The notes under the pieces: model-generated
The model's database searches: none
Seen by the model: only the letters and a program-made list of their open reading frames with translations
Told to the model about the DNA's origin: nothing
Shown here: one piece after another, positions 45,799 through 54,847 of the stretch
Layout of the letters: each line of letters begins with the position of its first letter
Numbering within the stretch: position 1 is the stretch's first letter
NCBI RefSeq assembly: GCF_009846525.1
Contig: NZ_CP024621.1
Coordinates: 248,001-312,000 of the forward strand
DNA: 64,000 nucleotides
Source of the DNA: Halomonas meridiana
GTDB lineage: Bacteria > Pseudomonadota > Gammaproteobacteria > Pseudomonadales > Halomonadaceae
Reading direction: 5' to 3'
Made by a program: the position numbers and the translations under genes

Positions 45799-46962
45799 CT
45801 ACGTCGCGTTATGTTTAACCGAAAATTTATCGTTAGCCAGCATCCCCGCCTGGCTATTCGTCGTCGGTATCCAACCTGCGTATATCCGCGCCGTGGTCAC
45901 CACGCTGGTATGCCCCATCTGTTTTGATACCCACGCGAGTGGCTCGCCAGCGCTGACCATCATGGATGCGTAGGTGTGGCGGGTTTGGTACGGGCGGCGG
46001 TACCGGACTCCGGCGCGCTTCAGTGCGTGGGCCCATAATGTTTTGCGTATAGCCTGATCGCCGGACCATGGTTCGCCTGTGCGGGGGTTGAGGAACACGC
46101 GGCCGCTGGGGTGTAGGTAGCTGAGTGTCTTCTGCGCTTTTAGTGCTTCCAGTGCACGGGGCAGGAGGTCAATGGTACGTGTGCCTGCTGTAGTCTTAGT
46201 GGTTTCCGCTTCACCTTTGGCTGCTTGGGTGATTGCACGTGTGATCCGGCAGCGCTTTTGCCGCCAGTCGATATCTCCCCACTCAAGCGCGACAAGCTCC
46301 GATGTGCGTAGCCCGCTCCACAGTGCAAACTGAATCAACGGTAAGCCGTCGCTGGGGAGAGCGGCTAGGATCGCGGCTTGCTCTTCGGCTGTGAACGGGT
46401 CGATATCATCCACCTCTTTGGGCGGTTCTATTTTCCGGTAGTGCCAGCCTGCTAGTGGATTGCCTGCAATCATCTCATCGTGCATGGCATCATCCAGCGC
46501 TGCTCGCAGTGGACTAATGAGGTTCGATATTCGTTTGTTGCTGCAGGTCAGGCGTGATGCCCAATCACGTACGTGGCCACGCTTTAGCTCTGCCAGTAGC
46601 AGGTGGCCGAACTCGGGGATCAGCTGACCCTCAATGGTGTTTTTATAATCTTTGTAGCTGCTGGCTTTCAGAGTGGGCTTTTTGGTGGCCAACCAGGTGC
46701 GCAAGTACGTATCGACCCGATCCTGACGCATGAACTTGCGAGCGTTCTTACTGCGGGGAAACGTCACTTGATAATCAAACGTGCCGGCATCGATCGATGA
46801 AATGACCGCGGCGCGATGGCGCGCCGCTTTCTTCAGGTTAGCGGGGGTGGGCTCGAGCTTGAGCCGTTCGCGGCAGCGGGTGCCCTGGTAGTAGAAGTCG
46901 ATTTCGATACTACTGGTCGAAGCTGCCCTGACCCCTTCGTAACTGCTCCCTTGGTTACCCAC
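45799..46962 (-). CDS. int: Tyrosine-type phage integrase
   Basis: A 387-residue site-specific recombinase. An Arm-type N-terminal DNA-binding domain (GVRAASTSSIEIDFYYQGTRCRERL) is followed by a SAM-like core domain and the catalytic domain: Arg in SGLRTSEL, TRHTYASM (Arg ~328), GHTS (His ~351) and nucleophile Tyr ~361 in ARIYAGW. The GTG start has GAGGGG about 9 bp upstream. Its first 130 bp overlap xis in another frame, as in lambda. It should recombine at the ssrA 3' end. Confidence 0.93.
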   Translation of the reverse strand: MGNQGSSYEGVRAASTSSIEIDFYYQGTRCRERLKLEPTPANLKKAARHRAAVISSIDAGTFDYQVTFPRSKNARKFMRQDRVDTYLRTWLATKKPTLKASSYKDYKNTIEGQLIPEFGHLLLAELKRGHVRDWASRLTCSNKRISNLISPLRAALDDAMHDEMIAGNPLAGWHYRKIEPPKEVDDIDPFTAEEQAAILAALPSDGLPLIQFALWSGLRTSELVALEWGDIDWRQKRCRITRAITQAAKGEAETTKTTAGTRTIDLLPRALEALKAQKTLSYLHPSGRVFLNPRTGEPWSGDQAIRKTLWAHALKRAGVRYRRPYQTRHTYASMMVSAGEPLAWVSKQMGHTSVVTTARIYAGWIPTTNSQAGMLANDKFSVKHNAT

Positions 46963-51952: not shown

Positions 51953-51981
51953 AAGGTAAATGTATTTACCTTTAGAGTCAA
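51953..51981 (-). promoter_or_regulatory. Left operator and early-left promoter (OL/PL-like)
   Basis: The perfect palindrome GGTAAATGTATTTACC at 51955-51970 extends by AA/TT to 51953-51972. On the minus strand TTGACT (51981-51976) lies 17 bp before TACCTT (51958-51953), so the palindrome overlaps the spacer and -10 box of the leftward promoter. The identical 16-mer occurs in the cI-cro region. A bound repressor would shut off the leftward early operon. Confidence 0.75.
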
Positions 51982-52009: not shown

Positions 52010-52036
52010 AAGAAAAAGCCGGTGCAAGACCGGCTT
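52010..52036 (-). terminator. Terminator of the cI-nuclease transcript
   Basis: On the minus strand AAGCCGGT-CTTGC-ACCGGCTT (52036-52016) is followed by TTTC. It lies just after the stop of the HsdR_N-type gene and before the left operator, so the lysogenic transcript should end here. Confidence 0.75.
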
Positions 52037-52042
52037 AGGAGC

Positions 52043-53125
52043 TTACTCGTAGCTTTTTACGACTGAAATCAGAGCTTCTCTGTGGTTGAAAATGTCAGTC
52101 AAAGCACTTAGATCATGCTTAACTGATTCATTATCTTGACGAATTTCGATTCTCTTCAATGTCTTGGAATTGAAGTGAAGTCGACAAATAGGCTTACGAT
52201 TATTGTCATCGAGAAGCACGGCACAGTAAGACTTTGCATCTCGCATGAAAACCCTTTCAGGCGCTACTTCACTAGCGACGATGGCCCTAACCATGTTGTA
52301 ACCATCAATTTCTTCCTGAGTCGTGACAATCTCGTCATCTGAAGACTGTTCAGGTGTCTCCTCGTCCATCTGAATGGACTGGACGTTTACTGATCCTGAT
52401 TCATCTCCACTGGTCGTGGCTAGTGCCTGCTTCAAACGAAGAGACACCTGTTCTTTGATGTGCTGAGCCATAGCATCGCGGATGATAGGGGTAAATTCAT
52501 CCAGCACCTGCTGGGTCATGCGGCCATCGAAAAAATCTTGAGCGATGAATTTGATGAAGTCGCGCGGTGGCTCTTTGAGCATTTTGCTGAAAGATGCCAT
52601 CGCAAGATTGGTGTATTTTAAGCGGTTTGCCGTGCTGAGAATGGTGTCAACATTGAAAACGGGCTTGGCAAATTTCTTCAGCTCTTCAATGTCTCTTTCG
52701 TTATAGTCGGTAAGTCGGAAGGTGAAAAACGGCCTGTTATCCAGCTTGTTGGTGTCATCGAGATCTGAATAGAAGCGATACTCGATACCGTTGGTCAAGA
52801 TCGCGAATTTGGCTTCTGTGCAGTTGAAGTAGCGATAGAGCTGGCTAAATTGAGCATCAGCCAAATCAGTGGTGCGCGGCTTGCATTCAATTAGTATGGA
52901 GAGCACACCATCGTTTTTAATGGCATAGTCGACCTTTTCGCCTTTTTTCAAGCCGACGTCAGCTGTAAATTCAGGCAGTACTTCGGTGGGGTTGAAAACG
53001 TCATAACCTAAGCTTTGAATGAATGGCATGACCATAGCATTTTTCGTCGCTTCTTCATTGACAATGTGGTCAAGCTGCTCTCTGGCACGGCCCGCCAGTG
53101 TTGCGATTTTCTGTGCTATCTCCAT
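52043..53125 (-). CDS. HsdR N-terminal-type nuclease protein in the rex position
   Basis: A 360-residue protein. Residues ~1-170 match the type I restriction R-subunit N-terminal nuclease fold (HSDR_N/COG4748): Glu25 in NEEATKN, Asp66 in KVDYAIKND and ECK (Glu80, Lys82) form the PD-(D/E)XK site. The remaining ~190 residues hold a helical part (FIKFIAQDFFDGRMTQQVLDEF) and a C-terminal beta domain; no helicase or methylase is attached. It starts 24 bp after cI and has its own terminator before OL. Expression in the lysogen and a role in excluding other phages are inferred. Confidence 0.82.
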   Translation of the reverse strand: MEIAQKIATLAGRAREQLDHIVNEEATKNAMVMPFIQSLGYDVFNPTEVLPEFTADVGLKKGEKVDYAIKNDGVLSILIECKPRTTDLADAQFSQLYRYFNCTEAKFAILTNGIEYRFYSDLDDTNKLDNRPFFTFRLTDYNERDIEELKKFAKPVFNVDTILSTANRLKYTNLAMASFSKMLKEPPRDFIKFIAQDFFDGRMTQQVLDEFTPIIRDAMAQHIKEQVSLRLKQALATTSGDESGSVNVQSIQMDEETPEQSSDDEIVTTQEEIDGYNMVRAIVASEVAPERVFMRDAKSYCAVLLDDNNRKPICRLHFNSKTLKRIEIRQDNESVKHDLSALTDIFNHREALISVVKSYE

Positions 53126-53149: not shown

Positions 53150-53878
53150 CTACATCCTCCCAAATGCCCAGCGTCCCAAAAACCGAGCGCAAATTTGGAA
53201 GTTATCTGTTTCATCCATTTCGTAGCTGGGGTACAGCGTATTGTCAGATATAACTCTAATTCGGTTTCCAGGTAAATGCTGCAGACGTTTAACGTGTACT
53301 TGGCCGTCGAGTTGAAAAATATAAACGCCGTCGTCCTGCATTTCTCGGACAGAAACATCAATGATTGCAAAGTCACCATGGCCCAGCGTCCCCATCATAG
53401 AGTCGCCTCGGGTACTGATGATCCTCAAGTGAGGGGAGGGTTCGATTCCGATAGCCCGTAAGACCGCTCTGGGCACTTCCATGTAGGCAGTGGTTTCTTC
53501 CGATAGAACAACCGCACCATGACCTGCGCTCGCAGTTACGGCAAGAATTGGAATCCTGTAATCAGCACTGCTGGTACCTTTCTCAGCATGCTCGTTGAGT
53601 AGCGGCTCCATAAGAGTCGACTCCACATTTTTACTGTGCATGGGTACGACGTTGCTGCTAGTGGTCGCTTTCTCACGCTTGCCCGTCAAGATCCATGCGG
53701 CTGTTGTTTGAAGGACTTTTGCTAAGCGCTCAAGGTTATGAGAACCAAGCTGTTGGTTAGAGTTTTTTTCCCATTGGGAAATTGATTCACGCGTGACGCC
53801 TACGCGTGCAGCTACCTCACGCTGAGTAAGCCTGAGTTGGGTGCGCCTTGATTTGATTCTTTCTGCTTGATCGCTCAT
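53150..53878 (-). CDS. CI/LexA-like phage repressor
   Basis: A 242-residue lysogeny repressor. N-terminal XRE-type helix-turn-helix (LTQREVAARVGVTRESISQWEKNSNQ), then a linker and an S24 peptidase domain with self-cleavage site Ala118-Gly119 (TASAGHG), nucleophile Ser160 (RGDSMMG) and general base Lys197 (VHVKRL). It should therefore be inactivated by RecA during the SOS response. It is divergent from cro over an operator region and cotranscribed with the downstream nuclease gene. A chromosomal LexA role is excluded by the context. Confidence 0.92.
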   Translation of the reverse strand: MSDQAERIKSRRTQLRLTQREVAARVGVTRESISQWEKNSNQQLGSHNLERLAKVLQTTAAWILTGKREKATTSSNVVPMHSKNVESTLMEPLLNEHAEKGTSSADYRIPILAVTASAGHGAVVLSEETTAYMEVPRAVLRAIGIEPSPHLRIISTRGDSMMGTLGHGDFAIIDVSVREMQDDGVYIFQLDGQVHVKRLQHLPGNRIRVISDNTLYPSYEMDETDNFQICARFLGRWAFGRM

Positions 53879-53941
53879 GTAAATAATCTTACGCCTTGTA
53901 GCGGTAATATGTTTCCGCTACAGTGGGTAAATGTATTTACC
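53878..53941. promoter_or_regulatory. Right operator region between cI and cro
   Basis: Three dyads lie here. GGTAAATGTATTTACC at 53926-53941 is identical to the left operator. TGTAAATAATCTTACG at 53878-53893 is an imperfect copy overlapping the cI start. GTAGCGG-N10-CCGCTAC at 53898-53921 lies between. On the plus strand TTGTAG (53896-53901) and TACAGT (53919-53924), 17 bp apart, could be the cro promoter. The layout fits a three-operator switch. Confidence 0.75.
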
Positions 53942-53953
53942 TGGGTGAGCGAC

Positions 53954-54142
53954 ATGCGTAAATCAGATGTAATTGAGCATTTTGGTAGCGTGAAGGCGGC
54001 AGCGAAGGCTTTGGGGCTGACTTCCCAAGCAGTGAGCATGTGGCCGGAAACGGTACCTAAAACCCGCCAATGGCAAATCGATGTATTGACGGAAGGCAAG
54101 CTGAGAGCGCAAAGGGTAAATGAATCTGAGAAATCAGCCTAA
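53954..54142 (+). CDS. Cro-like repressor
   Basis: A 62-residue helix-turn-helix protein: MRKSDVIEHFGSVKAAAKALGLTSQAVSMWPETVPKTRQWQIDVLTEGKL matches Cro/YdaS-type regulators. ATG 53954 is chosen because it directly follows the operator; the frame extends upstream without a start. It is divergent from cI and opens the rightward operon. It would repress cI and favour lytic growth. Confidence 0.85.
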   Translation: MRKSDVIEHFGSVKAAAKALGLTSQAVSMWPETVPKTRQWQIDVLTEGKLRAQRVNESEKSA

Positions 54143-54337: not shown

Positions 54338-54847
54338 ATGTCTAAACGCTGGCCAACCTCAAAGGAGCGCGCTGAGCGCGAAATCCTGCCCCTTAACTTG
54401 GCGCTGTATCACGCGGCGCGTGACTACCTCGGAGGCGGCAAAGCCATTGCCGCCATCTACGGACTGCCTGCTACCACGCTGCAGCATCGGCTAAACCCCA
54501 ACGCCGAGAATCACAAACTGACCATCGACGATCTGGAGCATGTGCTGGAAGCCACCCGCGATCCGCGCATTCTGGATTCGCTGCTGGCCCTGGTGCCGGG
54601 GGCACATTGGTTCGAGTACCAGGAAGCAACGAACGAGTGCAGCGAGCAACATCTGTTGAACTCGGTGGCGAACTTATCCAGCCAAGTGTCTGAACTGCTC
54701 ACGCGGATCAGCGAGCACCGCCGCGATGGCAAGTACCACGACCATGAAAAAGCGGAGCTGGAAAAGCTGAAAGGCCAACTGTTTGGCGCGGTTCAGGCGC
54801 TGCTGGTATGTGCTCAGCAGTTTGATGGGGAGGTGAGCCATGGATAA
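54338..54847 (+). CDS. Phage regulatory protein CII-like
   Basis: A 169-residue protein of the phage CII/CP76-type family. The N-terminal part is a helix-turn-helix (LALYHAARDYLGGGKAIAAIYGLPATTLQHRLNP, IDDLEHVLEATRDPRIL), and the C-terminus is a helical oligomerisation region. Members control early gene expression or the lysis-lysogeny choice. It lies after cro and overlaps the next gene start by 8 bp. Confidence 0.82.
   Translation: MSKRWPTSKERAEREILPLNLALYHAARDYLGGGKAIAAIYGLPATTLQHRLNPNAENHKLTIDDLEHVLEATRDPRILDSLLALVPGAHWFEYQEATNECSEQHLLNSVANLSSQVSELLTRISEHRRDGKYHDHEKAELEKLKGQLFGAVQALLVCAQQFDGEVSHG

Follow-up and report, generated by a model that had tools for sequence, protein, structure and literature searches.

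The window, a stretch of 64 kb from the 3.86-Mb chromosome of Halomonas meridiana, contains a temperate prophage with a gene for a lone HSDR_N-type nuclease directly behind its cI repressor gene, and we consider it fairly probable that this gene encodes a horizontally mobile, one-gene phage-exclusion nuclease. The context of the gene, here and in other genomes, suggests that the protein is probably an uncharacterized one-gene defence against rival viruses.

The nuclease gene is a complete open reading frame of 360 codons whose ATG is preceded by a ribosome-binding-like sequence, and the surrounding genes for an integrase, a CII-like activator, primases and an endolysin identify the element as a temperate prophage (Table 1). 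The preliminary description placed the gene 24 bp behind cI on the same strand, with a terminator ahead of the left operator, in a position resembling that of rexAB, and our analysis bears out each of these points. The 16-bp operator GGTAAATGTATTTACC occurs in exactly two copies in the 64 kb, and as many matches were obtained in none of 100 shuffles. The terminator-like hairpin was found by a scan that yields as many hairpins in shuffled sequence, and it has a counterpart between cI and the left operator of a syntenic relative. Two promoter-like sites reported by a promoter scan were no better than chance and were set aside. The gap of 24 bp leaves no room for a separate nuclease promoter, and we infer that the nuclease is cotranscribed with cI; it would then be made only in lysogens, the alternative being a promoter inside cI.

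Table 1. Features of the nuclease locus and its prophage in the window
Feature	Position	Strand	Evidence
HSDR_N-type lone nuclease gene, 360 aa	52043..53125	-	ORF, Pfam, PHROG, invariant catalytic residues, AlphaFold2 pLDDT 91.8
CI-type repressor (HTH_3 + Peptidase_S24), co-oriented, 24 bp upstream of nuclease	53150..53878	-	ORF, Pfam, PHROG
Intrinsic terminator-like hairpin 3' of nuclease	52016..52036	-	Hairpin scan; counterpart directly after cI in L236
Left operator GGTAAATGTATTTACC	51955..51970		Repeat search
Right operator GGTAAATGTATTTACC, exact repeat, cI/cro side	53926..53941		Repeat search
cro-like gene, 62 aa, divergent from cI	53954..54142	+	62-aa homologue in L236
CII-like transcriptional activator	54338..54847	+	phrog_101
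Integrase of nuclease-bearing prophage	45799..46962	-	phrog_1

A survey of the interval between cI and the left operator in other prophages had been proposed. Outside the window, intact close relatives of this cI turned up just twice, in a viral contig (L236) and in a relative from the same bacterial family (L238), and the two may be one and the same prophage. Their cI has 69% amino acid identity to that of the window, and the gene order on both sides of cI is the same as in the window prophage. In both, the terminator region comes straight after the cI stop codon, with the left operator and then the next gene behind it, and the nuclease is absent. The direct junction of cI, terminator and left operator in these syntenic relatives indicates that the nuclease of the window, a stretch of low G+C, is an inserted cassette. 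Comparison of the sequences places the insertion point most likely between the cI stop codon and the terminator, where the insert would be expressed with cI. The nuclease tree, which places the window copy with support among Halomonadaceae sequences that otherwise do not follow a repressor, favours gain of the gene here rather than loss in L236 and L238.

The nuclease has also outlasted a prophage of the same kind. In another species of the genus (G418; L237:9440-11160), an intact nuclease 94% identical to the window copy sits in a decayed prophage. Flanked by zinc-transport genes on one side and an mscS-like gene on the other (both named from a reading of their sequences), the remnant consists of approximately 60 cI codons interrupted by stops, the nuclease itself, its terminator and operator, and a broken next gene that likewise carries stops. 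The two nuclease genes differ by a dN of 0.036 and a dS of 1.53, and their low dN/dS of 0.024 suggests selection for the protein. Since divergence is uneven along the gene, recombination has taken place, and some of the purifying selection may be older than the prophage's decay.

The same slot is occupied in other phages. After deduplication of the viral and phage loci at 80% identity, a repressor-like gene on the strand of the nuclease stands at position -1 in 21 of 63 and at position -2 in 7 of 59, with 0 to 3 at the other positions; at chromosomal loci, position -1 is so occupied in 1 of 63. An independent Pfam scan of 61 of the -1 genes agrees (HTH_3 in 16, Peptidase_S24 in 13 and Peptidase_M78 in 5). 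The nuclease lies right behind the repressor in phages of several phyla: in temperate phages of Corynebacterium, Fusobacterium, Enterococcus, Streptococcus and Acetoanaerobium it comes after either the repressor alone or the repressor together with an ImmA-like protease, and in these five annotated groups it is on the repressor's strand, towards the integrase. A distant relative (27% identity) is found behind the repressor in Klebsiella phage KpF5 and in E. coli prophages. When the label "behind a repressor" is mapped onto a tree of 128 sequences, four of the labels having been assigned by eye from the upstream protein, 20 changes are required, and supported branches force at least 15 of these; the slot has therefore been filled repeatedly. 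The gene is rare in phages, being present in only 18 of 50,697 phage records; a search of viral contigs with the single window protein returned only two loci, and an alignment was required as the query. Some phage copies lie elsewhere, in the baseplate region in E. coli and beside HicAB among the structural genes in Porphyromonas phages. The E. coli case, a distant relative between baseplate genes of a prophage (L209:4001-5161), represents a second cargo position.

The gene had been described as a feature of the prophage switch, and while the phage slot is real, that description is too narrow, as many close relatives are solitary chromosomal genes and the slot is therefore one among several places where the gene resides. 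Its nearest named relatives are found in Salinicola and Halomonas, and the genes for the closest (82% identity in Salinicola, 74% in another genus of the family) are solitary among other, mostly metabolic, genes. Relatives carrying the nuclease number 22 of 150 within the family, and a search of the class found a full-length relative in about 10 of 274 genomes, its weak family matches including UvrC and other proteins. Natural E. coli homologues include WP_000061477.1 and WP_004184742.1. One E. coli form is present in 186 of 5,426 complete genomes; in the one genome examined, it is beside hicAB and next to aldB. HicAB thus adjoins the nuclease on an E. coli chromosome and in Porphyromonas phages (L210:4908-7074; L011:4248-6065), in unrelated settings and possibly by chance. 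Relatives are also encoded by 24 Borreliella and 5 Borrelia plasmid records; among those listed, mainly the first 190 to 256 residues match, and the C-terminal domain may be missing or diverged. The G+C content of the nuclease gene is below that of its surroundings in 95 to 96% of loci. Together, these features are typical of a mobile accessory gene.

The protein matches phrog_4225 ("endonuclease") end to end (residues 1 to 359; E = 5.9e-114), and residues 22 to 126 match the Pfam families HSDR_N (E = 5.8e-14, well above the curated cut-off) and HSDR_N_2 (E = 2.6e-11), which is the only type of Pfam match and comes with no helicase or methylase domain in the 360 residues. HSDR_N was matched by all 90 homologues aligned (42 to 82% identity). 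The preliminary description had recognized an E/D/ExK nuclease domain with Glu25, Asp66, Glu80 and Lys82, and all four residues proved invariant in the 90 homologues, together with Glu24, Lys28, Gln95 and Tyr99. The marks of a PD-(D/E)XK nuclease of the HsdR/RecB type (the Asp, the Glu-x-Lys, the N-terminal Glu and the Q-xxx-Y motif) are therefore all present, as would be expected of a working enzyme.

An AlphaFold2 model built with the homologue alignment has a mean pLDDT of 91.8 and predicts a nuclease domain (residues 1 to 140), a helical middle (143 to 239) that includes a 35-residue helix, a disordered linker (243 to 263) and an alpha/beta C-terminal domain (266 to 360). The C-terminal region of about 190 residues that had been described is indeed free of methylase and helicase domains, but it comprises the helical middle, the linker and the alpha/beta domain rather than a single region. 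Modelling of the C-terminal domain (about 95 residues) on its own, as had been suggested, gave a confident fold (pLDDT 94.3). The best fold match of the whole model in the PDB is an HsdR subunit, whereas the C-terminal domain has no significant PDB match in sequence or fold (best E = 0.41); sequence matches of the region to RNF8 and RanGAP, and fold matches to OspA, RNase III and PUR, were insignificant and were discarded. Thr268, Asp296 and Arg315 of this domain are invariant in the 90 homologues, and a strongly conserved stretch runs from Arg295-Asp296-x-Lys-Ser-Tyr300 to Asp306-Asp-Asn-Asn-Arg310-Lys-Pro-x-x-Arg315. Proteins of 594 to 623 residues that match phrog_4225 at C-terminal positions read as UvrC and were counted neither as family members nor as sharing the domain. 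At L193, L195 and L202, the proteins that read as UvrC match around a DDKSYPYI-like motif, whose likeness to the RDxKSY motif is probably due to chance. A domain that determines sequence specificity would vary among homologues, whereas this one is constant, which suggests that it recognizes something chemically constant.

The window protein is a member of the phrog_4225 family, to which RefSeq gives the names "type I restriction endonuclease" and "HsdR N-terminal domain-containing protein", and has its size, domains and catalytic residues. Searches of the accessible literature returned no functional test or phage challenge of this family. Going by annotations in papers, the family is probably COG4748. 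A table of Tn7 cargo lists COG4748 among the restriction endonucleases (PMC8649781). HSDR_N is common to the window protein and the HsdR subunit of type I enzymes (EcoR124I and Vibrio vulnificus 3h1t), and HsdR chains are among the best PDB matches. Unlike HsdR, however, the window protein has 360 residues rather than about 1,000, a separate C-terminal domain and, by Pfam, no helicase motor, and no HsdM or HsdS was recognized among the prophage genes scanned. The nuclease domain of the window protein weakly resembles type IIG enzymes (PADLOC E = 7.8e-05), but the protein lacks their methyltransferase and specificity domains. In PADLOC 2023 it had no full-length match, and the weak hits mostly linked its nuclease domain with type IIG enzymes.

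How a lone nuclease would spare host DNA was the question raised at the outset, and its solitary nature was upheld by the survey of neighbours. Across 38 chromosomal and 46 viral loci, no methylase family recurs within three genes of the nuclease among the neighbour families listed, so that protection by a neighbouring methylase, which we sought, is not a recurrent feature, and a cognate methyltransferase of the type II or IIG kind is found neither in the protein by Pfam nor as a recurrent neighbour of its homologues. This argues against a sequence-specific restriction enzyme, and an ordinary enzyme of that kind appears unlikely since no methylase regularly accompanies the nuclease. In the explanation that we favour, the nuclease would be transcribed with cI, so that the lysogen would make it while the lytic genes are silent, and it would destroy the DNA of an incoming phage. 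RexAB-type defence genes behind a CI-like repressor in Pseudomonas putida (PMC12894663) are a precedent for this explanation; the phage copies at other positions and the lack of a full-length PADLOC match weigh against it. Most economically, the invariant C-terminal domain would recognize a feature absent from resting host DNA and only then license cleavage; candidates for this feature would be a base modification, a free DNA end, an intermediate of replication or recombination, or a small ligand produced upon infection. Such recognition, of which we are less sure, would mean that no methylase is needed. Since the C-terminal domain matches no solved structure, this means of sparing the host draws no support from any recognized modified-base or DNA reader. 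An abortive mode of action is nearly as likely.

The most specific version of phage exclusion is strict modification-dependent restriction, in which the C-terminal domain would bind a modified phage base and HSDR_N would cleave nearby. Type IV nucleases (GmrSD, McrBC and Mrr) likewise act without a methylase, and the absence of a methylase partner, the transfer of the nuclease among many phyla without a protecting enzyme, and a C-terminal domain that is conserved rather than variable are consistent with this version. In contrast to those enzymes, no known modified-base reader or NTPase domain was found in the window protein, and its C-terminal domain resembles no PDB entry in sequence or fold; in this strict form, the version is possible but rather unlikely.

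Only a little less plausible is an abortive-infection effector, inactive until a phage signal binds the C-terminal domain and then degrading host and phage nucleic acid, which would kill or arrest the cell with a RexAB-like outcome. The rexAB position, repeatedly recruited, points in this direction, and RexAB-type defence genes have been described behind a CI-like repressor in Pseudomonas putida (PMC12894663). Lambda RexAB and P. putida RexABpp are likewise cargo, located between the CI repressor and left operator or behind a CI-like repressor, with expression expected in lysogens (PMC12894663), and the invariant C-terminal domain could act as a sensor. The abortive-infection type genes Abi_2 and putAbiC occur among the neighbours of viral copies, in one case each. 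However, where RexAB pairs a DNA-binding protein with a membrane protein, the window system is one gene with a nuclease fold between cI and the left operator; it has no membrane partner and no detected sequence relation to RexAB or RexABpp, and no conserved partner protein stands beside the nuclease.

We consider it improbable that the nuclease serves the prophage's own biology, in control of the switch or in DNA repair or recombination. Cotranscription with cI is expected from the 24-bp gap, and HSDR_N-type nucleases, as DNA enzymes, could take part in recombination, but closely related prophages do without the gene, many homologues lie outside prophages, the copy in the decayed prophage is intact, and few phage records contain the gene. 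That the gene is a passenger without current function in the window prophage, as its being a low-G+C insert might suggest, is very improbable given its full length, intact catalytic residues, ribosome-binding-like sequence and low dN/dS against the sister-species copy.

More tentatively, we propose that the phrog_4225 family as a whole may be a widespread innate immune nuclease with a new recognition fold, whose C-terminal domain would detect some universal mark of invading DNA, so that no protecting methylase is needed, and which would have been recruited at least a dozen times by unrelated temperate phages as an exclusion gene behind the repressor. If phage exclusion is indeed its function, a single gene spread over many bacterial phyla, E. 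coli included, would be an unrecognized phage-defence nuclease that solves the problem of self and non-self without a methylase. Repeated recruitment behind repressors would then make the rexAB slot a general site for exclusion cargo, and the natural homologues in E. coli make the question of defence directly testable.
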